Below are positions 5,556 to 63,743 of a stretch of 64,000 nucleotides of DNA, one piece after another. How positions within the stretch are numbered: position 1 is the stretch's first letter; every line of letters begins with the position of its first letter. The translations under genes were made by a program, and so were the position numbers. The notes below the pieces were generated by a model that ran no database searches, was not told where the DNA came from, and saw only the letters and a program-made list of their open reading frames with translations. The DNA lies in the IMG/VR virus record IMGVR_UViG_3300021962_000055, positions 28,848 to 92,847 of that record; one strand, given 5' to 3'. Source of the stretch: a virus.

Positions 5556-7645
5556 TACTTACCTTTGGCCTCTGCCCAGCTAATAGCGGAATGGCAGGAA
5601 ACCTTTAACGGAATCCCGTTGTATGTTACACCATCTCCCATGGAGGACACCAGCTTGTCAAGTAACCTGTCTACCTGGTCTTTTTCTACCAGTACAACTA
5701 GTTCGTCGTGTACCTGTACCAGGATGTTGGCACCCAGTGGGGTTAGGTCGTTATACACATCGACCATGGCTTTCTTACAAATGTCGGCAGCTGACCCCTG
5801 TACAACTGCGTTAACTGCCTGACGCTCTGCCCTAGACCTTAAGGCGGGGTCAGTGGAAACTAGATCGGATAAATGCCTGCGGCGACCAGACAGGGTCTGC
5901 ACATAACCTTTGGCTCTTCCCTCTGCGATCACAGACTGCTTCCACTTGGTGATCCCAGAAAACTGCTTGTAGTACTGGTCGATGACATGGCGGGCATGCT
6001 CTTCATCGATACCCGTGGTGCGAGCAAGTTTCTGCGGGCCACCGCCATAGGCCGTCAAGAAGTTGACGCCCTTACCAAGCTGTCGCTCTTCTGAGGTTAC
6101 TTCGGTAACCGGCTTACCAAGCACCAAGGCGGCAGCACCAGAGTGAATGTCGGCCCCGGTCAGGAAGAACTCACTCATCTTCTTGTCTCCGGAGAACATG
6201 CACATTACACGGAGCTCGATCTGGTCATAGTCGGCAACCAGCAGCTCATACCCCTCAGGGGCAACGAATAGTCCTCTAACGCTACTGTCACGTGGGATGT
6301 TCTGCAGGTTGGGGTTGCTGGACGACAGGCGTCCAGTGGCGGTCCTGTGCAGGTGAAACGACGGGTGCAGTCGGCTCTTGTTTAGCTTCGGGAGCAACCC
6401 ATCAACGTAAGTTGATACCAGCTTTTTGGTTTCAGCCCACTCCAAAAGCATCGGGACAACTGGGTGCTTAGTCTCTAACTTACGAAGTGACTCTTCGTCA
6501 ACTGATGCGCTTCCACCAGGGGTGGTCTTTACTGGCTTAAGCCCTAGCCCACCCTCTCGCTTTTTGTTGAACAGCAGCTGTTGTTTATGCTTTGAACTGT
6601 CAGGGTTAAACCCCGGTGGGGCGTAATCCATCATTGAAACCAGAAGGTCGTTCAGGCGGTTCTCCAACTGTTTGCCAAGCACAGTCATAGACCTCTGGTT
6701 GACTGGAATACCGTTGTCCTCCATCTCCATGAGGACGCGAAGAACTTCCATGTCTTGACGAAGGGAATTGAGAAGTTCTGGTACAGCTACAACCTTGCGG
6801 TACAGCGACTTGTACAAATTCCACGTCCAGCGAACATCTAGGTGTACGTACCGTAGAGCCTGTGTAAATGACGTCTCACTAATGATCGCTCCAAGCTTTC
6901 CATCTTTGTGGTACGCCTTAAACGATTCAAAGTTGTGGGAGATCAGGTGATCCAAACTGTACTCAGACAGGTTCTCATTAAGCACATGCTGTAGGAGCAT
7001 GGTATCCAAGTAGGGGCCCGGGGGAAGGCTTCCACCAAAGTATTTACGTATGGACCTGGCATCAAACTTTACGTTGTGCCCAATCTTAACAATGTCGCTA
7101 AAGAAGATTGGGCGTAGGGCCTCAAATACTTGTGATGGTGAGAGCTGTGGGGGAGGGGGGCTGTATACGGCTGGTTTGTAATACTTGGCTTTGGCCATGG
7201 ACTCTTTACCACTCTTCAAAAGAGCTCGGTATCCAGGTGGTGGAACAGTTGACCCATCACCACGTTCGGCAGGTTCAATGATGCTTCCATTGGGGTGACC
7301 CATTGGAATAGCCCACGAATGTCCCTGGGTAGCAATCCCAATCCAAAATACGTTGTTACGGATTGGGTCTAGCGCCAGGGTGTTGCGCCACCTGTTGGTA
7401 ATGATGTCTTTGGCGCGATTGACAATATCAACATTTGTGGTCTTAAGAGTGGCGACGTGGTCTTTCCACTCCTTTTCAATCCACTGCTGTACATCTGGGT
7501 GCCGCTCTACAGCACCCATCGTCTCAACGTCGAAAGCGAATGCTCCGACGTTTTTTACAACCTCAACGATCTCGTTAAGTTGCTCCACTGTAGTAACGAA
7601 GTGGGGGGCATTGCTGCCCCCCACTCGTGCCGTGATATTGCTCAC
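5555..7645 (-). CDS. polA: Family A DNA polymerase with 3'-5' exonuclease domain
   Basis: The 696-residue enzyme has an N-terminal DnaQ-like proofreading domain (FDVET with D39 and E41; KIGHNVKFDA as Exo II) and a Pol I core: motif A VADYDQIELR (catalytic D472), motif B RQLGKGVNFLTAYGGG, and motif C VQVHDEL (D647). The 5'-3' exonuclease domain of bacterial Pol I is absent, as in phage replicative polymerases. The start is GTG at 7643-7645 with a weak Shine-Dalgarno. Motif B has Leu/Thr-Ala-Tyr, consistent with the Tyr form of family A enzymes. It lies directly downstream of the putative SSB gene, so the two are probably made together. Confidence 0.96.
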   Translation of the reverse strand: MSNITARVGGSNAPHFVTTVEQLNEIVEVVKNVGAFAFDVETMGAVERHPDVQQWIEKEWKDHVATLKTTNVDIVNRAKDIITNRWRNTLALDPIRNNVFWIGIATQGHSWAIPMGHPNGSIIEPAERGDGSTVPPPGYRALLKSGKESMAKAKYYKPAVYSPPPPQLSPSQVFEALRPIFFSDIVKIGHNVKFDARSIRKYFGGSLPPGPYLDTMLLQHVLNENLSEYSLDHLISHNFESFKAYHKDGKLGAIISETSFTQALRYVHLDVRWTWNLYKSLYRKVVAVPELLNSLRQDMEVLRVLMEMEDNGIPVNQRSMTVLGKQLENRLNDLLVSMMDYAPPGFNPDSSKHKQQLLFNKKREGGLGLKPVKTTPGGSASVDEESLRKLETKHPVVPMLLEWAETKKLVSTYVDGLLPKLNKSRLHPSFHLHRTATGRLSSSNPNLQNIPRDSSVRGLFVAPEGYELLVADYDQIELRVMCMFSGDKKMSEFFLTGADIHSGAAALVLGKPVTEVTSEERQLGKGVNFLTAYGGGPQKLARTTGIDEEHARHVIDQYYKQFSGITKWKQSVIAEGRAKGYVQTLSGRRRHLSDLVSTDPALRSRAERQAVNAVVQGSAADICKKAMVDVYNDLTPLGANILVQVHDELVVLVEKDQVDRLLDKLVSSMGDGVTYNGIPLKVSCHSAISWAEAKGK

Positions 7646-19882: not shown

Positions 19883-21334
19883 TCACACCGATGTGGTTAT
19901 ACCACCAGAGGTGGTGATTGTGTAAGAGCCCTTACGGATCAGTTGAACGTTTGTTGGTGAACTTCCACCTAATGTTACGGTCGCGTATTCAACACCCTCT
20001 ACATTGTGTATTGCCCTATAGATATCACCAATTTTAATGTCTACACCAAACTGAATCCTCGGCAATTCAAACAGGGCATCTAACGCCCTTTCAACGGCTC
20101 TTTGTACAGATACTGCTACGTAGCTTTCTTGTACGTAAACAGTTGCGGTAATTGTTTTTGGAACTAAAGTTATTGAACTCTCAGCAACAACTGTTACCCC
20201 AAGAGTAGATAGTGGTTGAATCAATGCCTCAATCTCATCTTGGACAGTACTAGTTACTGCTACTGAGTTTGATGTGTAACTTGTGTATTCAGAAATATAA
20301 GGCATTCCATACACAGATACGCTTCCCCCACCACCGCCTGAAGCGTTTGGCGTATAGGCCACTACAGCTTTGTATACACTAGGTACCCGAAGAGCCAGGT
20401 CAACATAATCTTGAAGTGTTACCGCTCGGTCTTGTGACCTAATCATTGCTTTTAATGAGCTCTTAATTGAGTCGACAGTTTCACCATTACTGCCACCAGT
20501 AGCAGTTGTTGACGAAACAACTGCTAGTCCTACTGGCTGAGTAGTTTTAAACGCTGATATTTTGTTTTGTCCAACGTTCCCACTACCACCAGAGGTGGTG
20601 TTGTAGGTTGCAGTTATTTTGGTGTTTGTTGCTGGGATGCGTCCGCTTAAGCGGTTACCAAACAAAACTTGTGTTTCATTGTCAGCATTTACGATTACTG
20701 AATAAACACTGTTACCTGAATTACTAAGGGATATATTTGGTACTGGGTTCCACGCGGTTGGGTCTATACCGTTTTCATACACATAAACCTGCACGGATGA
20801 CGGAACGGCATTTGTTTTTGATAGCGAGTATTTTTGGTTTACTTGCCCATTTGCCGAAGTAGTCAATACTTCTTCTATAACTTTTTTACCTTCTGTAACT
20901 AAAACTCCTACAGTTTGACCAGCCAACACCGTTGTCTCTTGGTTTGAAAAGAACTCGTACTGAGATCCATCGCTAATTGCAACAAACACCGTTCCGGCGG
21001 CTAGTGAAACGGATGCCGACGATGAGTTGGAAACATACACAGTAGCGGTAGCAGATGAACGATTAAACGGGGTGTAGTCAAATAGGTTGGCCAATGCCAA
21101 CACGCTTTCACGTTGAGTGGCAGTTGTAATAAAAGCCTCGCCAGCAGCACGGTCAACGTAATAATGTAGGACGTCACCCATGTAAGCCCATAGGTCAACA
21201 AAAAGCATTCCAAAATCAGACGGGTCCCTATCGGTCCAGTCTGGAACAACACGTGATGCACGGGCCAACAAATCACGACGAATGTTTTCGTAATCGCGGC
21301 TAGCAAAGTCAAAACCTGGGGTTCCTAAAGGCAT
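19883..21334 (-). CDS. Baseplate wedge protein J-like
   Basis: 483 residues opening GFDFASRDYENIRRDLLARA and DWTDRDPSDFGMLFVDLWAYMGDVLHYYVDR, the diagnostic N-terminus of the baseplate J / T4 gp6 family. A central domain is a Ser/Thr/Val-rich beta region, and the C-terminal half (DRAVTLQDYVDLALRVPSVYKA, RAVERALDALFELPRIQFG, IYRAIHNVEGVEY) is the conserved J domain. It forms the wedge ring around the hub. Confidence 0.93.
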   Translation of the reverse strand: MPLGTPGFDFASRDYENIRRDLLARASRVVPDWTDRDPSDFGMLFVDLWAYMGDVLHYYVDRAAGEAFITTATQRESVLALANLFDYTPFNRSSATATVYVSNSSSASVSLAAGTVFVAISDGSQYEFFSNQETTVLAGQTVGVLVTEGKKVIEEVLTTSANGQVNQKYSLSKTNAVPSSVQVYVYENGIDPTAWNPVPNISLSNSGNSVYSVIVNADNETQVLFGNRLSGRIPATNTKITATYNTTSGGSGNVGQNKISAFKTTQPVGLAVVSSTTATGGSNGETVDSIKSSLKAMIRSQDRAVTLQDYVDLALRVPSVYKAVVAYTPNASGGGGGSVSVYGMPYISEYTSYTSNSVAVTSTVQDEIEALIQPLSTLGVTVVAESSITLVPKTITATVYVQESYVAVSVQRAVERALDALFELPRIQFGVDIKIGDIYRAIHNVEGVEYATVTLGGSSPTNVQLIRKGSYTITTSGGITTSV

Positions 21335-21342
21335 TGTTACTC

Positions 21343-21753
21343 CTAGATCGGGCTGTCTTCGGCAGTTACACCGGGTACGGCTACGTTAAATGCTACAACC
21401 TGGGGAGCCCCAAGTGGTAGACGATAAACAATTGTGATGGCCAGTGTCGTGTCTTGGTTCCCAAATGCAGCGACACTGTAGGATGGGGCTAGTCGAATAT
21501 CGAGAATAGAAACTCGGCTTATACTGTTTGACATTTCCTGCTTAGCGTCGATTACAAAGTCAGCAATAGACAATTCGTCAATCGGTTCAAATAGCAGTTG
21601 TCTGACACCAGCGCCATACCGATGGTTCATAACACGTTCGTACTTGCTGGTTGTAGCAACATTTATGATTTTTTGCTCAGCCACAACTGTTGGGGATGAG
21701 GTTGTTACAACCCGTCCTCCCGAAAATGAAAAAGGAACTTTTATTGACTTCAC
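21343..21753 (-). CDS. Baseplate wedge protein, gp25/W-like
   Basis: 136 residues fitting the GPW/gp25 family: VMNHRYGAGVRQLLFEPIDEL followed by DFVIDAKQEM and RVSILDIRLAP. The EPR-like element (here FEP) near the middle is typical. gp25 sits at the inner baseplate and starts sheath assembly. It overlaps the next gene by 4 bases, in the usual order W-J-I. Confidence 0.85.
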   Translation of the reverse strand: MKSIKVPFSFSGGRVVTTSSPTVVAEQKIINVATTSKYERVMNHRYGAGVRQLLFEPIDELSIADFVIDAKQEMSNSISRVSILDIRLAPSYSVAAFGNQDTTLAITIVYRLPLGAPQVVAFNVAVPGVTAEDSPI

Positions 21754-21995
21754 GCCGACCCTCCGTCAAGACCTGCGGTTGCAGAATACCCAGAGTTTAC
21801 TATATGTATGTTTGACACTTTTTCATCTTCAACAGCAACTAACACTTGGTCTCCTGTGGTTAAAGGCCCGTAAGAAATGTTACGTGATAGTTGTACTGAC
21901 ACGGCGTTACCTAGTAACGAAGGGATCTTTACGTACACCGCATCATTTGATGAATACGCAACGACAGCACGATAGACGCACATTCCGTCATACAT
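21750..21995 (-). CDS. Small baseplate-module protein
   Basis: 81 residues from ATG 21993-21995 (a TTG two codons earlier is less likely, AGGG being nine bases before the ATG). Strand-rich: VYRAVVAYSSNDAVYVKIP, VSVQLSRNISYGP, TGDQVLVAVED. Length, beta content and place between hub and gp25 fit an OB-fold spike or hub-adaptor protein (gpV-like), but it lacks a visible apex motif, so this is tentative. Confidence 0.6.
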   Translation of the reverse strand: MYDGMCVYRAVVAYSSNDAVYVKIPSLLGNAVSVQLSRNISYGPLTTGDQVLVAVEDEKVSNIHIVNSGYSATAGLDGGSA

Positions 21996-23154
21996 ATTCA
22001 ACCACCCTTTCTACTGATGTTTTCCACTCTCCATTTACGTATTTTGCAGGTGGTGGCGAATCAAACAATTCAGTGGGAGGGATTATGTATTCACTAGTTA
22101 AGTTAAAGTCCCTTGATATATCAAGGGTTGAAATACAACTAGATCCACCAATGGTGTGTTTAACAGAGTTAACATACCATAATCCTTCAAACTTTGCTCC
22201 GTAACCCGTGACCTCAACAACCCCACCAGGAACGGTGCCAATTGCTGCGTGTACATCAAGGATTGCATTAAACGGTAAGTTTTTACGTATCTTTGCCCCG
22301 ATTATCTTTTCAGACTCTATAACAGAGTTGGAGGATGTAGAGAGAGCAGATGTGTATTTTGATCGGTGCCCAACACCAGACCACGACATTTCAGACGATA
22401 GGTGGTCTCCTGTAGAGGTTACGGATACACCAGCGTTATCTAGAGAATCAACTTGGTAATTCCAAGAAACTCCATCCGGTGTTAAATACCCAAAGCTTCC
22501 GTGAAATTTTAAGATACCCCCAGGTTGCGGTGATGTTACCGTGTTGGGACTGACCAAGGTTTCGAATGAGGGTCGTCTACCAATTGCCTTAAACGGGTCC
22601 CATATATGCATGTGGGTTCCATGAACAGTAAACGAGTACCCGTAGGTGTCACAGAACCACGACAGGAACTCCCAATCTGATTTTTTTGCTTGAGCAATCT
22701 GGGGAATTGAAAACCCGTCGTTGACTACGTCGACACTAAATCCGTATTTGTCAGACATCTCTTTGGCGATAGACACCACTGAGCAGTTTTCCCATATCCT
22801 AGAGTTGGTGCTTTTCATGTTAATTGAAGCACCAAAACAAACAATGTTCGCCATTTGAAACTGGCTTCCATTTACAACTTGCCCACCGGCTGAATATTCG
22901 GGCTCAATGTATAAAACGTAACCATAAAACTCAAACTTGCGTCCTGTACCCAAAACAGCTGTGACTCTTACGGGTGCATCAATATAGTCCGTAATAGCTT
23001 TAGCTGGTATACCAGCCATTTGTAATGACAACATGTCATGCTTGTTGGCTGATAGGCTTAACGTAAGCTTGCTAATTGACAGGTAATTGACTTCAGATTC
23101 ACCAATGTCAATAGACACTTTGGGAGATAGCGGACTTCCGCTATTGATAATCAT
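21988..23154 (-). CDS. Baseplate hub protein, gpD/gp27-like
   Basis: 388 residues. Features of the late-control D family: N-terminal strands, then WENCSVVSIAKEMSDKYGFSVDVV, KKSDWEFLSWFCDTYGYSFTVHG, and a long beta region ending with WYVNSVKHTIGGSSCIS. gpD-like proteins make the trimeric hub on which tube and spike assemble. It overlaps the LysM gene upstream by 4 bases, matching the LysM-D-V-W-J order of contractile tails. Confidence 0.85.
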   Translation of the reverse strand: MIINSGSPLSPKVSIDIGESEVNYLSISKLTLSLSANKHDMLSLQMAGIPAKAITDYIDAPVRVTAVLGTGRKFEFYGYVLYIEPEYSAGGQVVNGSQFQMANIVCFGASINMKSTNSRIWENCSVVSIAKEMSDKYGFSVDVVNDGFSIPQIAQAKKSDWEFLSWFCDTYGYSFTVHGTHMHIWDPFKAIGRRPSFETLVSPNTVTSPQPGGILKFHGSFGYLTPDGVSWNYQVDSLDNAGVSVTSTGDHLSSEMSWSGVGHRSKYTSALSTSSNSVIESEKIIGAKIRKNLPFNAILDVHAAIGTVPGGVVEVTGYGAKFEGLWYVNSVKHTIGGSSCISTLDISRDFNLTSEYIIPPTELFDSPPPAKYVNGEWKTSVERVVEYV

Positions 23155-60045: not shown

Positions 60046-60399
60046 TTATCCACAGGTGCCCAGTTATCCACAGGTAACCCCCCCCATTTCGAATAGGGCT
60101 ATTACGCAGTGGTGTGTTTATCGGCGGGTGGGTACTGCCCCCGCTCCGGCGACCTGCTAGCGACTAGTGATGGGGGTCACCCCCCACCCCCCACTTAGTT
60201 GTGGGGTGGTGGCATCGGGGTGCGCTAGTCACTAGCGTACCTGATCCTCCCCTGCTAGGCAAGGCGCCTACCGGCCTGGCAGAAGCATCATGGGGACATC
60301 TGTGGTTATCCACAGGGTCAGCCCCCTACCAGTGGTTATCCACAGGGTTATCCACAGGCCTAGCAATGGGTCTATGAGTTATCCACAGGTTTATCCACA
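60046..60399 (+). other. Cluster of seven perfect DnaA boxes (candidate replication origin)
   Basis: TTATCCACA occurs at 60046, 60064, 60306, 60336, 60348, 60379 and 60391 (start positions), all on the plus strand, seven exact copies in 354 bases. This is the strong DnaA-box consensus. Two pairs have 12-base spacing (60336/60348 and 60379/60391), placed 43 bases apart, about four helical turns. The stretch is non-coding, between the leftward methyltransferase gene and the rightward 60491 gene. An eighth copy is at 61185. No AT-rich unwinding stretch was obvious. Confidence 0.85.
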
Positions 60400-60490
60400 G
60401 AGGTGGGGGCTGGCTAGTCACTAGCATTACGGTGCGCGGAGTTGCTATCTCTCTGTCCAGTGTCCATTCACTACCAGAGAGGGGAACATC

Positions 60491-61132
60491 ATGGCTACCA
60501 TGACCCGCAGCAACATCCAACCGATGACCGACATCGTCGAGGCCTTCAAGGCTGACTACGACAAGGTCGTCGCTGACAACGGCAACGGTGCCGTCGAACT
60601 GTACGCCCGAGGCGTGCTGATTGGCGATGCCGGTGACCTGGTGCGCGACCTCGCGTTCGACCTGGCGAAGCGCTTCGGCGCCACCTGGGGCGAGAGCGAC
60701 GTCGCTCGTGCGTTCGGTCTCAAGACCGCCGCAGCCAAGGTCATGACCGAGACCGTGCGCTACCTGGCCACGCTCACCGATGACGGCACTCCGGCCGTCG
60801 ACGTGCGCAAGGCCGTGTACGCGGTCCACAACCAGACCGGTACCGGTGTGGTCGCGCTGTCCAACTTCCTCAAGGTCAAGGCCTCGAAGTTGAAGGACGG
60901 CAAGACCCTCCCGTACAAGGCGGTGGTCAGCGCATCGGACCACCTCGTCAAGGAGGCCAAGAAGGCGGGCGAAGAGCCCAAGCCCGAGGCCACCCCTGCC
61001 GAGCAGGTCGATGCCATCATCAAGCGCATCGAGCGCGCTCTCAACGACCTCGCCCCCTTCACGGAGGCCGGTTACGAGTTCGCACTCGAGCAGTCGGTCA
61101 AGCTCGCCGCCATCAAGGCGCGCTTGGCCTGA
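60491..61132 (+). CDS. GC-rich hypothetical protein next to the DnaA boxes
   Basis: 213 residues from ATG with GAGAGGGG nine bases upstream; that ribosome site lies in a 7-bp hairpin (CTCTCTG / CAGAGAG), which could hide it. Residues about 55-90 (LAFDLAKRFGATWGESDVARAFGLKTAAAKVM) look like a helix-turn-helix; the C-terminal 60 are charged helices. Codons are almost all G/C-ending, unlike most of the window. Sitting beside the DnaA boxes, it may be a regulator or initiator, but no family is recognised. Confidence 0.75.
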   Translation: MATMTRSNIQPMTDIVEAFKADYDKVVADNGNGAVELYARGVLIGDAGDLVRDLAFDLAKRFGATWGESDVARAFGLKTAAAKVMTETVRYLATLTDDGTPAVDVRKAVYAVHNQTGTGVVALSNFLKVKASKLKDGKTLPYKAVVSASDHLVKEAKKAGEEPKPEATPAEQVDAIIKRIERALNDLAPFTEAGYEFALEQSVKLAAIKARLA

Positions 61133-61139
61133 GAGATGG

Positions 61140-62003
61140 TGACTCCGCGCATCTAGTGTGACGTGACCGGCCAGCCTCCTCCCCTGTGGATAAGCCGCGC
61201 TAGTGGCTAGCGAGTAGGCCTGATAAGGGCCTGTTTGTAATCCATGGGAATCACATGGGAGGGGTGCTGACCTCTGTGTAACAACGCGCGAACCCCCCAT
61301 CCTGCCAGGCAATACGTAAGCCGAACGGCCCAACCGCAATGTACTCCGGTACGTTGGTCAAGGAGGTATGGCCAAACCAACTTATGTTGGGGGCGCAGGA
61401 TGTGGACGGCCTTCAAGCCTGGGTTGTAAGCCGCGCCCTGTAACCGCAGAGCAAGGGAGTTGGCCTCAGTGCCGGGATATCCCTGTCCCCTACATCAACG
61501 TGTAAGAGTTAGGCCCGCCCAAGTGGTGGGGCGACCACCCCTAAGCAAGGTGGATACTACATCGCCCCCATGAGAGCCACGGGCAGAAGCGACCCCCACA
61601 AGGGGCGCGCGCACGACCCAGCGAGTACACCATACTCGCATGCCGTCCGGTTGTATCCGGGTAAGTCTGGTACCAGGCGGGAGACACTCTGACCACGTTC
61701 ATAAGGGGCCGAGGATGCCGAGGGATTACCCCTCGGTGTCCTCTGCCCCTTCCGACCATTGGGAGCAAGGCCGGTGGGTTGGTGCTAGTCACTAGCCCAC
61801 CGGCCAAGATCTTAGTCAATATTGTAATTGACTAGGACAAGCGGCCATCGCCACACCGGGCAGGCCGCTTGTTTAACCGGGGGCGAGGGTACGCTACTAC
61901 TAGCAACCCTTGCCCCCACCTCTTGGGGAGTCGACCGACCCCCATAAGGCAGCAGGCATACCCCCTATCATGCCAGCGCCATCGGTCCCCTTCTCCCCGA
62001 TGG
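61140..62003 (+). ncRNA. Candidate large structured non-coding RNA
   Basis: No convincing gene spans 61133-62038, but hairpins are dense. Examples on the plus strand: GCGAGTA/TACTCGC (61621-61639); CCGG/CCGG (61647-61660); nested stems around 61705-61748; GGCCGGTGGG/CCCACCGGCC (61769-61805, with a CTAG repeat in its loop); TAGTCAAT/ATTGACTA (61813-61834); ACAAGCGGCC/GGCCGCTTGT (61837-61872); GGGGGCGAGGGT/ACCCTTGCCCCC (61879-61917, one G-U); CCATCGG/CCGATGG (61979-62003). Length and tRNA context recall large ornate phage RNAs such as GOLLD or ROOL. The family is not identified. Confidence 0.5.
61185..61193 (-). promoter_or_regulatory. Eighth perfect DnaA box
   Basis: TGTGGATAA, the reverse complement of TTATCCACA, lies 53 bases after the stop of the 60491 gene. 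With the seven boxes upstream it brackets that gene, so DnaA bound on both sides could loop the DNA. Confidence 0.8.
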
Positions 62004-62020
62004 TTGGAGTGGCTCATGAA

Positions 62021-62435
62021 CCCTTGAAAGGGGAACCCATGAGCAAGTTCCACGTGGAGCACTACGATGTCCTCGGTCTGTTGGGCATCGACCACCTCAT
62101 CTTGAGGTGGGAGTACACAAAGGAAAGGGTCTGCCCGGTCACCGGTGCGCCGGTGGCGTTCGAGCAGGTCCTCGCGGGGCAGTACCACCTGCCCCGCATC
62201 GGTGGCGACTCGGCCAACGGGTACGAAGTGTACCCGACCGAGTCGTACCTCCGCCACCTGGCCGACAAGGTGTCGGCCTTCCTCGCTGACTGAGTCAGCA
62301 CGGTTAGGAGAACCAACCGAGCCACTCCAACCATCAACCGTTCTCGGACAGGCGCGCGTCGCGACTGTGCTGCCGTCCAAACCAATCTGCTCCTAGTGGC
62401 TAGCGGGCCCGTCTTCCTACGACCCTTGAAAGGGG
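62021..62435 (+). repeat. CCCTTGAAAGGGG leader repeat carrying the ribosome site
   Basis: The 13 bases CCCTTGAAAGGGG occur at 62021-62033 and 62423-62435, each 4-5 bases before a start codon. The AAGGGG part is the Shine-Dalgarno; CCCT can pair with AGGG around a TGAA loop, so the repeat may both provide and mask the ribosome site. Two unrelated genes share it. Confidence 0.75.
62039..62293 (+). CDS. Small hypothetical protein
   Basis: 84 residues from ATG 62039 preceded by GAAAGGGG. MSKFHVEHYDVLGLLGID, RWEYTKERVCPVTGAPVAF, RIGGDSANGYEVYPTESYLRHLADKV. The sequence looks folded (strands then helix). GC-rich codons. Not a family I know. Confidence 0.75.
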   Translation: MSKFHVEHYDVLGLLGIDHLILRWEYTKERVCPVTGAPVAFEQVLAGQYHLPRIGGDSANGYEVYPTESYLRHLADKVSAFLAD

Positions 62436-62439
62436 AAAT

Positions 62440-62883
62440 ATGAAGACACACAAGAAGAAGCCCAAGACAGACAACACCATCCGCCGTGAGGCGGAGGTCG
62501 CCCTCTCCAAGTTGGATGGGGCAACCCGCGAGCTGACGGGATCCTCCCAGGAGGAAGCCGACGAGCTGATGGCTCTCCTGCGGGAGTGCCAGAAGCACAT
62601 CAGCGAGATGGAGTTCGTGGCCCGTAAGGGCTACGCCATCATGAAGCGGGCAGAGAAGGCGCTCAAGTTGCCGTCTCTGGAGTTGCCCAGCAAGGCAATG
62701 CCCTTGGCCGACTTCCAGAAGGAAGTCAAGCGCCAGGAGAAGGCATTCAAGCAGAAGGCCACGGAGTCGATGAAGAAGATCGTCGACGCCGACTACGCCC
62801 TTCTCAAGGGCCTCGATGCCGTGGCGGACGCCATCAGCAGCCGTATCACCGAGGCCGCATACCGAGGGTTCGCCCTCAACTGA
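62440..62883 (+). CDS. Helical hypothetical protein
   Basis: 147 residues, Lys/Glu/Ala rich and almost all helix: basic start (MKTHKKKPKTDN), then RREAEVALSKLDGATRELTG, ADELMALLRECQKHISEMEF and KEVKRQEKAFKQKATESMKK. Likely a coiled-coil protein that may bind nucleic acid or a partner. Shares its leader repeat with the gene before it. Family unknown. Confidence 0.75.
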   Translation: MKTHKKKPKTDNTIRREAEVALSKLDGATRELTGSSQEEADELMALLRECQKHISEMEFVARKGYAIMKRAEKALKLPSLELPSKAMPLADFQKEVKRQEKAFKQKATESMKKIVDADYALLKGLDAVADAISSRITEAAYRGFALN

Positions 62884-62920
62884 CCCAGACGGGTCCGCTA
62901 GTCACTAGTAGCACACTCCT

Positions 62921-63023
62921 GGTGGGAGCCCTCTTATCCCCCATAAGAGGAGAAGGCGCGGCGCTTACAACCCCCATAAGAGGGGAGGGTGCCGGTGTGG
63001 TTCGACTCCACCTCCCACCACCA
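62921..63023 (+). ncRNA. tRNA-like element with encoded CCA
   Basis: GGTGGGA (62921-62927) pairs fully with TCCCACC (63013-63019), followed by A and an encoded CCA (63021-63023). A T-arm TGTGG TTCGACT CCACC precedes, with one T-C mismatch at its base. Between them, where a tRNA has D and anticodon arms, there is a perfect 8-bp hairpin (CCTCTTAT/ATAAGAGG) and an irregular region. No usable anticodon loop (needs U33) is seen. CCCCCATAAGAGG occurs twice inside it. It begins 12 bases after a CTAG repeat. Confidence 0.55.
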
Positions 63024-63035
63024 TGCTAGCCACTA

Positions 63036-63108
63036 GCCCACGTAGCTCAGGGGATAGAGCAACGGTTTCCTAAACCGTGTGTCGCAGGTTCGAATCCTGC
63101 CGTGGGCA
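63036..63108 (+). tRNA. tRNA-Arg (anticodon CCU)
   Basis: 73 bases. Acceptor GCCCACG / CGTGGGC, D stem GCTC / GAGC, anticodon stem ACGGT / ACCGT around TTCCTAA (anticodon CCU), variable loop GTGTC, T arm GCAGG TTCGAAT CCTGC, discriminator A, no encoded CCA. It reads AGG. Its first base is the last base of a CTAG repeat. Confidence 0.95.
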
Positions 63109-63110
63109 CT

Positions 63111-63181
63111 CTGGTCAAAAGGCACGAGATGGGGCATCACTCCCCATCGGGACTAACGGGGGCTTGCCACCCGTGAACCAG
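63111..63181 (+). ncRNA. Candidate three-way-junction RNA after tRNA-Arg
   Basis: CTGGT (63111-63115) pairs with ACCAG (63177-63181), closing two hairpins: GATGGGG/CCCCATC (63128-63148) and ACGGG/CCCGT (63156-63174). All stems are perfect. It starts two bases after the tRNA and has no gene in it, so it could be a processing or regulatory element of the transcript leading to the 63255 gene. Confidence 0.45.
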
Positions 63182-63254
63182 ACGAGTTTATCCGTTCTCG
63201 ACAAAAACGGACAATTCTCCCAGTCCCAGCTAGTCACTAGAGGAGGTGACAACA

Positions 63255-63488
63255 ATGGCAAAAATTACCATCACAACGTCCACCGAGACGCTTCAGTTGC
63301 TGGAGGACATCCTCCAGTCATACGAAAATGCGTTGGACGACCACCTGTACCGCATCTTTCCCGAGTCTTCTACTCGGCAGGCTCAGGGCGACATCGCCAC
63401 CATGCGTGCCGAGATGAACCGAATGATCGGTCAGGCGGAACGCCAGATCGAGAAGACCCGCCCCGACTTGTCGGGAGTCCACGACTAG
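63255..63488 (+). CDS. Small hypothetical protein behind a CTAG repeat
   Basis: 77 residues from ATG 63255, with GGAGG eight bases upstream. MAKITITTSTETLQLLEDILQ, IFPESSTRQAQGDIATMRAEM, RMIGQAERQIEKTR. A short beta start then two helices. Its stop TAG is the first CTAG of the following repeat. Family unknown. Confidence 0.7.
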   Translation: MAKITITTSTETLQLLEDILQSYENALDDHLYRIFPESSTRQAQGDIATMRAEMNRMIGQAERQIEKTRPDLSGVHD

Positions 63489-63503
63489 TCACTAGGAGGT
63501 GAC

Positions 63504-63743
63504 ATGAACAGCATCCAATTCTCTCTCCCCAATGGGTTCACATTCTCTGTGGCCCAGTGGGGAAAGGTTAAGGAATGCGCCGTTCTCCGGAGCGATGATT
63601 TCGTTCCTCTGGGCGTGTGGTACGCACCAAGCCTTGAAGACGACAGCGTTCTCATTCTCAGTGGGAGCGCAGAAAGCTTGGCAGCGGCCATGGAAAGAGC
63701 AATCGATTGGGCGAAAGACAACGCGCCCAACGCTAGTCACTAG
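63504..63743 (+). CDS. Small hypothetical protein behind a CTAG repeat
   Basis: 79 residues from ATG 63504 (GGAGGTGAC precedes). MNSIQFSLPNGFTFSVAQWG, LILSGSAESLAAAMERAID. Looks like a small alpha-beta protein. Its stop codon is made by the second CTAG of the next repeat (AGT-CAC-TAG). Family unknown. Confidence 0.75.
   Translation: MNSIQFSLPNGFTFSVAQWGKVKECAVLRSDDFVPLGVWYAPSLEDDSVLILSGSAESLAAAMERAIDWAKDNAPNASH

Follow-up and report, generated by a model that had tools for sequence, protein, structure and literature searches.

The repeats that most resemble those reported here are the 17-bp repeats of the Cluster O phages (Corndog; TGTTCGG-N3-CCGAACA), the function of which is unexplained (PMC4351075). 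Their inverted arms are invariant and flank a 3-base center that varies; they number about 30 copies per genome, are enriched between the small genes of one transcription unit with some copies inside genes, and are not linked to promoters. The stoperators of the Cluster A phages (L5, Bxb1), the sites of the repressor gp71, number 20–30 per genome, with many in short intergenic spaces, and among related phages the motif diverges jointly with the DNA-binding protein that each phage encodes (PMC6550527, PMC9283540). The start-associated sequences of Cluster K (PMC3203893; contrasted in PMC4351075) are short gene-boundary repeats, some of which are joined to a ribosome-binding site. In this report, we describe an array of the palindrome CTAG-N3-CTAG in the early region of the phage in IMG/VR virus record IMGVR_UViG_3300021962_000055 (92,847 bases; G000). 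The window, which is the 64,000-nucleotide stretch from which the analysis began, covers bases 28848–92847 of this record.

The array resembles each of these systems in the features listed above, with a candidate first-gene product in the place of the DNA-binding protein that diverges with the stoperator motif. The arm sequences differ from those of Cluster O, and the phage that carries the CTAG repeats is an unrelated myovirus genome. When the Cluster O 17-mer was used as a query, matches were found only in Mycobacterium and Gordonia phages; the Cluster O genome examined was Catdawg. The Cluster O paper describes one conserved sequence for that cluster (PMC4351075), whereas here the arms vary among relatives and one arm sequence goes with a particular first gene. 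The CTAG sites are palindromes found in both orientations, in contrast to the stoperators, which are asymmetric 13-bp sequences that are oriented with transcription and bind their protein as a monomer. Either an integrase or parABS is present in the Cluster A phages, whereas for this phage there was no match to PF00589 (Phage_integrase) or PF00239 (Resolvase) and only a ParA-like fragment. Unlike the start-associated sequences, the CTAG element is palindromic and is also found at gene ends, before a transfer RNA (tRNA) gene, and inside reading frames. The kind of element is already known, from the unexplained Cluster O repeats and from the stoperators, which are explained and asymmetric. No description of the exchange of the palindrome among relatives together with a lineage-specific first gene was found in the limited literature searched.

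The CTAG-N3-CTAG Array

Between positions 60157 and 63743 of the window there are 11 exact copies of CTAG-N3-CTAG, where 0.71 would be expected and none of 100 shuffles reached 11. As the sequence-only reading had reported, seven of these copies are exact and four are variants; the seven are CTAGTCACTAG, and the variants differ from it at the center (CGA, TGG, TGG, and CCA). That reading confined the element to the last 4 kb, which holds for the window and fails for the genome. The two ends of the record overlap by 197 bp with 3 mismatches (98% identity), and the contig of a relative (G001) aligns over the end-to-end join; the map is accordingly a circle of about 92,650 bp. Past the window end, 15 further array copies were found at contig positions 252–11673. 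The whole record has 27 copies against 0.75 expected. The array comprises 26 of these within 15.5 kb of the rightward early region (89004 to the contig end, and on to 11673); the remaining 77 kb of the genome has a single copy at contig position 22798, in a leftward operon. Copies 252, 539, 5505, 7348, 11673, and 22798 are numbered on the contig, and those from 60157 to 63743 on the window.

Over the whole record, the CTAG tetramer itself is hardly enriched (263 against 221). Pairs of CTAG at a spacing of seven occur 27 times and at every other short spacing no more than 3 times, and CTAG-N3-CTAG was the most extreme among all of the 4+4 dyads tested in the genome. The two arms are invariant, and 13 different centers, mostly of the form Y-N-R, are distributed over the 27 copies. 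The symmetry-related centers TCA/TGA and TGG/CCA are each present, and centers of the C/A and T/G type are roughly equal in number. Copies are present in operons of both directions, with centers in both orientations.

The genes were called with a simple caller made for this analysis, and the placement figures are approximate. Between genes, or overlapping a gene end, are 20 of the 26 array copies, where 20% of positions qualify (binomial P = 7e-10); two others are just inside a gene start and four are inside open frames. The earlier description of the copies as always between genes is thus correct for the window and too strong for the array as a whole. The TAG stop of a gene is supplied by nine copies across the whole genome. 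The last three copies in the window are indeed followed directly by (A)GGAGGTGACA and then a start codon, and those at 63485 and 63733 supply the stop of the preceding gene, both as originally read. The suggested likeness in placement to start-associated sequences extends to the gene boundaries and to some ribosome-binding-site joins; a start codon is found within 20 bases at 7 copies, and within 30 bases at only 7 of 27 as well. A positioned promoter element was looked for in the flanks of the sites and none was found; apart from the C that follows the site and the G of the ribosome-binding site, the flanks gave no other positioned element. Promoters at the individual sites are therefore unlikely, which is also the view that the Cluster O authors took of their repeats (PMC4351075).

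Conservation in the Closest Relatives

The motif search in related phages that the sequence-only reading had called for was carried out. The closest array-bearing relatives are G002, which is identical to G000 at the proteins tested, and G001 with G003, which are contigs of one sample and probably, though not certainly, one phage. In the comparison of G000 with the 70–90% identical relative, all eight fixed bases were kept at 12 of 15 aligned copies, against 25 of 86 for lone CTAG tetramers (Fisher P = 3e-4). The centers change in several of the conserved copies (CCA to TCA, TGG to TGA, and CCA to TCG). The exceptions are copy 252, for which the relative has a substitute 6 bases off; copy 5505, at codon 7 of a ParA-like gene, for which G001 has a substitute just upstream of the gene start; and copy 7348, which is lost. 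A relative also retains the copy of the leftward operon.

A scan of viral contigs with CTAGTCACTAGGAGG returned 23 loci, of which one is a real relative (L015/L031, the same as G001). The high-GC (guanine-cytosine) loci among L008–L030 were rejected as relatives because their element, of the CCTACTAGTNACTAGTAGG type, is unrelated, and most of the other loci were rejected with a single copy each. Streptomyces phage BRock, with one chance copy, was likewise rejected as a carrier of the array. In the high-GC contigs L008, L011, L013, L025, L029, and L030, copies of CCTACTAGTCACTAGGAGG / CCTACTAGTGACTAGTAGG are separated by fixed distances of about 2.5 and 6.4 kb, which suggests a mobile or terminator element of a separate kind.

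Other Palindromes in More Distant Relatives

Some 60 other related records were found by terminase or polymerase matches, and each has only 0–3 copies of CTAG-N3-CTAG; the terminases of the distant relatives are 85–92% identical. Those that were fetched in full were searched for any repeated palindrome, using order-1 Markov and family-wise shuffle controls. A different word was found in several of them: GTCTCA-N3-TGAGAC in G007 (16 exact copies), TGTCCCA-N3-TGGGACA in G017 and G011 (12 and 8), TGCGTTA-N3-TAACGCA in G018 (as TGCGTTAC-N-GTAACGCA, 5 exact copies and 1 near copy), and CTAA-N3-TTAG in G022 and G004 (8 and 5). The Markov controls gave means of 0–0.25 copies, and the family-wise shuffles were exceeded in G007, G017, G011, G018, G022, and G004. 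The excess in G004 is modest and is credible because the same word is found in G022. Palindrome enrichment in G006, G008, G010, G012, G014, and G019 was not, or barely, above the family-wise shuffles.

All of these words are, like CTAG-N3-CTAG, built around a 3-base center and are in the early region; a single symmetric change per arm converts CTAG-N3-CTAG into CTAA-N3-TTAG. The homologous early region contains nearly all of the copies in G007, G017, and G018. In G000, G007, G017, and G018, the SNF2 helicase gene has one copy at its stop codon or immediately beyond it; G022 has no copy at this stop. Whole sets of copies differ between relatives by symmetric changes.

An array-like architecture was also seen in another phage group. 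The contigs L326, L339, L364, L365, and L400, which are low in GC and apparently unrelated, contain 3–10 copies of TGTCCCAA(G/C)TTGGGACA. These are mostly at gene boundaries in L326 and L400, and in L326 they are around a small first gene. L400 encodes an integrase, a DnaB-like helicase, and a DNA methyltransferase.

The First Gene of the Array

The gene that begins at 60491 is the first of the array, and genes in the same position in G004, G007, G017, and G018 encode proteins of 181–253 amino acids that are different in each lineage. When the first-gene proteins of G000, G007, G017, and G018 were used as tblastn queries, no match was found in the other lineages, and the G004 protein returned only itself from the viral contigs. 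A scan with TGTCCCA-N3-TGGGACA identified three further contigs of the family that cover the locus, including one identical to G017. Compared with that of G017, the first genes of these contigs, which the repeats directly flank, show 100, 96, and 71% identity; in the 71% case, the neighboring helicase is 95% identical. Between G017 and contig L396, a segment of the first gene that resembles a helix-turn-helix is 80–93% identical and the ends are 30–67% identical. In this lineage, one repeat thus goes with one first gene. Among the comparisons of first genes between lineages, only the alignment of G004 with G018 scored higher than its shuffles (all 300 of them), and these two share GVS..V..Y..L..I. 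The AlphaFold2 models made for two of the first-gene proteins were not good enough to be searched for related folds.

No homologue of the 60491 product was found in the viral contigs, phage records, Pfam, PHROGs, or the PDB, and G000 was the sole contig of the CTAG lineage found to extend over this gene. The model of the product is all-helical and of low confidence (predicted local distance difference test score of 44). Its position, together with the coupling in one other lineage, suggests the 60491 product as the candidate reader of CTAG-N3-CTAG. A short protein that by eye is MerR/AlpA-like is a weaker candidate, since its family is also present in relatives that have no repeats. A 117-amino acid gene (6013–6366), common to the repeat-bearing genomes first compared, was set aside because a match from the G018 family is present in the repeat-free G008 and the product looks acidic. 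A ParB-like gene of 277 amino acids, found only in G000, G001, and G002, was also rejected.

Proposed Function and Alternatives

On balance, we lean toward a reading in which CTAG-N3-CTAG is the site for a dimeric phage protein, probably the product of the first gene, that controls early transcription at gene boundaries. The symmetric and invariant arms, the free center, and the indifference to orientation point to recognition of DNA by a dimer. Among the three ideas in the sequence-only reading, the operator for a dimer is the best supported, also by the presence of copies in operons of both directions and by the symmetric changes between relatives. From these observations we infer DNA binding, dimerization, the identity of the binder, and an effect on transcription. 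A dimer of the 60491 product would bind the two-fold symmetric site, and the protein bound at gene boundaries within the long early transcription unit would act as a roadblock or silencer on elongation or on access to genes, in a stoperator-like manner. With three sites before its own gene and one after it, the protein would also regulate itself; promoter control at each site would not be part of this mechanism. The site word and the protein would change together between lineages, so that each lineage would read only its own sites, and the uniform sites would make gene boundaries tolerant of the gain and loss of cassettes.

Several points weigh against this reading. The coupling comes from a single repeat lineage, in which three different first-gene sequences were found. 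A helix-turn-helix in the 60491 product is putative, given that the protein has no recognized domain and an unreliable model. The profile built from the G004 and G018 proteins picked out no further members, and profile comparisons of the 60491 product with the first genes of the other lineages were not significant. Four array copies are inside open frames. G006 has a cluster of DnaA boxes and a first gene and no repeat, which indicates that the repeat system is dispensable. Since no integrase was found, a lysogeny repressor is not evident, and the context may be the timing of the lytic cycle rather than lysogeny.

The copies could instead be recombination joints, that is, short identical sequences at which early-gene cassettes are gained, lost, and moved with no dedicated binder. 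L396 has repeat-gene-repeat, with an extra gene of 77 amino acids, where G017 has one repeat, and the blocks of homology meet at the repeat; a 51% identical homologue of the extra gene is behind another repeat downstream in G017. One deletion between L342 and G017 starts at a repeat edge, and homology between G000 and G001 breaks at copy 539. However, three of the six insertions and deletions between G017 and L342 are far from any repeat (about half are at or near one), and few, if any, of the Cluster O repeats are in insertions, deletions, or rearrangements (PMC4351075). Eleven bases are short for homologous recombination, and passive joints would not predict the conserved isolated copies, the in-frame copies, or the wholesale change of word. 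Cassette exchange at some repeats is real and need not be their purpose; as the explanation of the array, recombination joints are quite unlikely. That the copies are a transcript-processing signal, as the sequence-only reading had also proposed, finds no support in G000. RNA hairpins, whether as terminators, as RNase sites, or as translational operators placed before ribosome-binding sites, would accord with the 7 G000 copies within 20 bases of a start codon and with the flanks in G017, G011, and G018, which pair at many copies with different sequences at each. Pairing of the flanks in G000, G007, G022, and G004 is not above that of permuted flanks, and the G000 value (3.48 of 10, against 3.76 permuted) falls short of an intrinsic-terminator stem, with T-runs unscored. 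The arms never covary, the nonpairing C/A centers are as frequent as the T/G centers, and the copy in the leftward operon is kept in a relative. Hairpins may thus have been added in some lineages and are not a common property, and we consider them very unlikely as the general function.

It is also highly improbable that the array is centromere- or iteron-like and serves replication or a ParB-like protein from a DnaA-box origin. Clusters of DnaA boxes head the array in G000, G007, G018, and G004, and the array includes a ParA-like gene whose Walker motif is degenerate. The copies, however, follow gene boundaries across 15 kb rather than being clustered at the origin. G017 has repeats with no DnaA-box cluster, G006 has the boxes with no repeats, and the ParA-like gene was not recovered as common to all repeat-bearing relatives. 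A wider form of the reading in which a first-gene dimer binds the repeats would be a system of self-recognition, where a palindrome of the lineage's own at the early-gene boundaries and a fast-evolving first-gene reader specific to it would jointly repress or time early transcription and mark out gene cassettes that can be exchanged, and where the pair would have been replaced repeatedly among phages with 85–92% identical terminases. We regard this as unlikely in its entirety.

The Phage and Its Early Region

The phage is contractile-tailed and of an actinobacterial type, with genes for a tail sheath, a portal, and a terminase that is 48% identical to those of Streptomyces phages of the BRock group. 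A DNA polymerase is encoded, and among the smaller proteins there are domains of RecA, a DnaB-type helicase, and a primase. Most of the long genes point leftward. Genes for MoxR-like AAA proteins, a VWA protein, and the SNF2-type helicase are found with many small genes in the rightward early region, and the array starts in a divergent intergenic region. The features within the window are collected in Table 1. The region with the DnaA-box-like sequences is probably an origin of replication; similar clusters were found beside the array in G007, G018, and G004 and also in the repeat-free G006.

Table 1. Features of the CTAG-N3-CTAG Array within the Window
Feature	Position	Strand	Remarks
Seven TTATCCACA (DnaA-box-like)	60046..60399		among copies 1–3
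Copy 1, CTAGCGACTAG	60157..60167		divergent intergenic region, among DnaA-box-like sequences
Copy 2, CTAGTCACTAG	60225..60235		sole array copy in G000 with long flank pairing (7 contiguous pairs)
Copy 3, CTAGTCACTAG	60414..60424		66 bp upstream of first gene of array
First gene of array, 213 amino acids, candidate DNA-binding protein	60491..61132	+	three copies upstream, one downstream; positional counterpart of first genes of relatives
Copy 4, CTAGTGGCTAG	61200..61210		67 bp downstream of first gene
Copy 5, CTAGTCACTAG	61785..61795		
Copy 6, CTAGTGGCTAG	62393..62403		36 bp upstream of gene at 62440
Copy 7, CTAGTCACTAG	62898..62908		14 bp past end (62883) of preceding gene
Copy 8, CTAGCCACTAG	63026..63036		abuts tRNA-Arg gene
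tRNA-Arg (CCT)	63036..63109	+	inside array
Copy 9, CTAGTCACTAG	63230..63240		fused to AGGAGGTGACAACAATG
Copy 10, CTAGTCACTAG	63485..63495		first TAG is stop of gene 63255–63488; fused to GAGGTGACATG
Copy 11, CTAGTCACTAG	63733..63743		second TAG is stop of gene 63504–63743; fused to GAGGTGACATG

A scan with Rfam gave only the tRNA above threshold. After the first gene, about 0.9 kb (window 61133–62038) has no convincing gene, two copies of the repeat, and no Rfam match. The ParA-like protein encoded within the array (L005:5487–6002; 171 amino acids) has the Walker motif KGGQGITT, without the usual second lysine. A gene on the minus strand at L006:950–2338 (contig 20950–22338) matches queuine tRNA-ribosyltransferase (phrog_887), which is also annotated in BRock, and this match may point to deazaguanine modification of the DNA. 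Large, homologous BRock-like phage stretches are present in chromosomal contigs of Terracoccus and Nonomuraea (L303–L308, L309–L314, and L315–L320), with terminase identities of about 50%. These stretches are probably large prophages, and no array was found in them.

Significance

For dispersed dyad repeats in phages such as Corndog, neither a binding partner nor a function has been known. The related phages described here offer several words in the same positions, together with a candidate reader gene that is testable in pairs. If the pairing holds, it would provide new orthogonal pairs of operators and DNA-binding proteins, and would make it possible to study how some 10–30 scattered sites are changed by a phage together with their reader.

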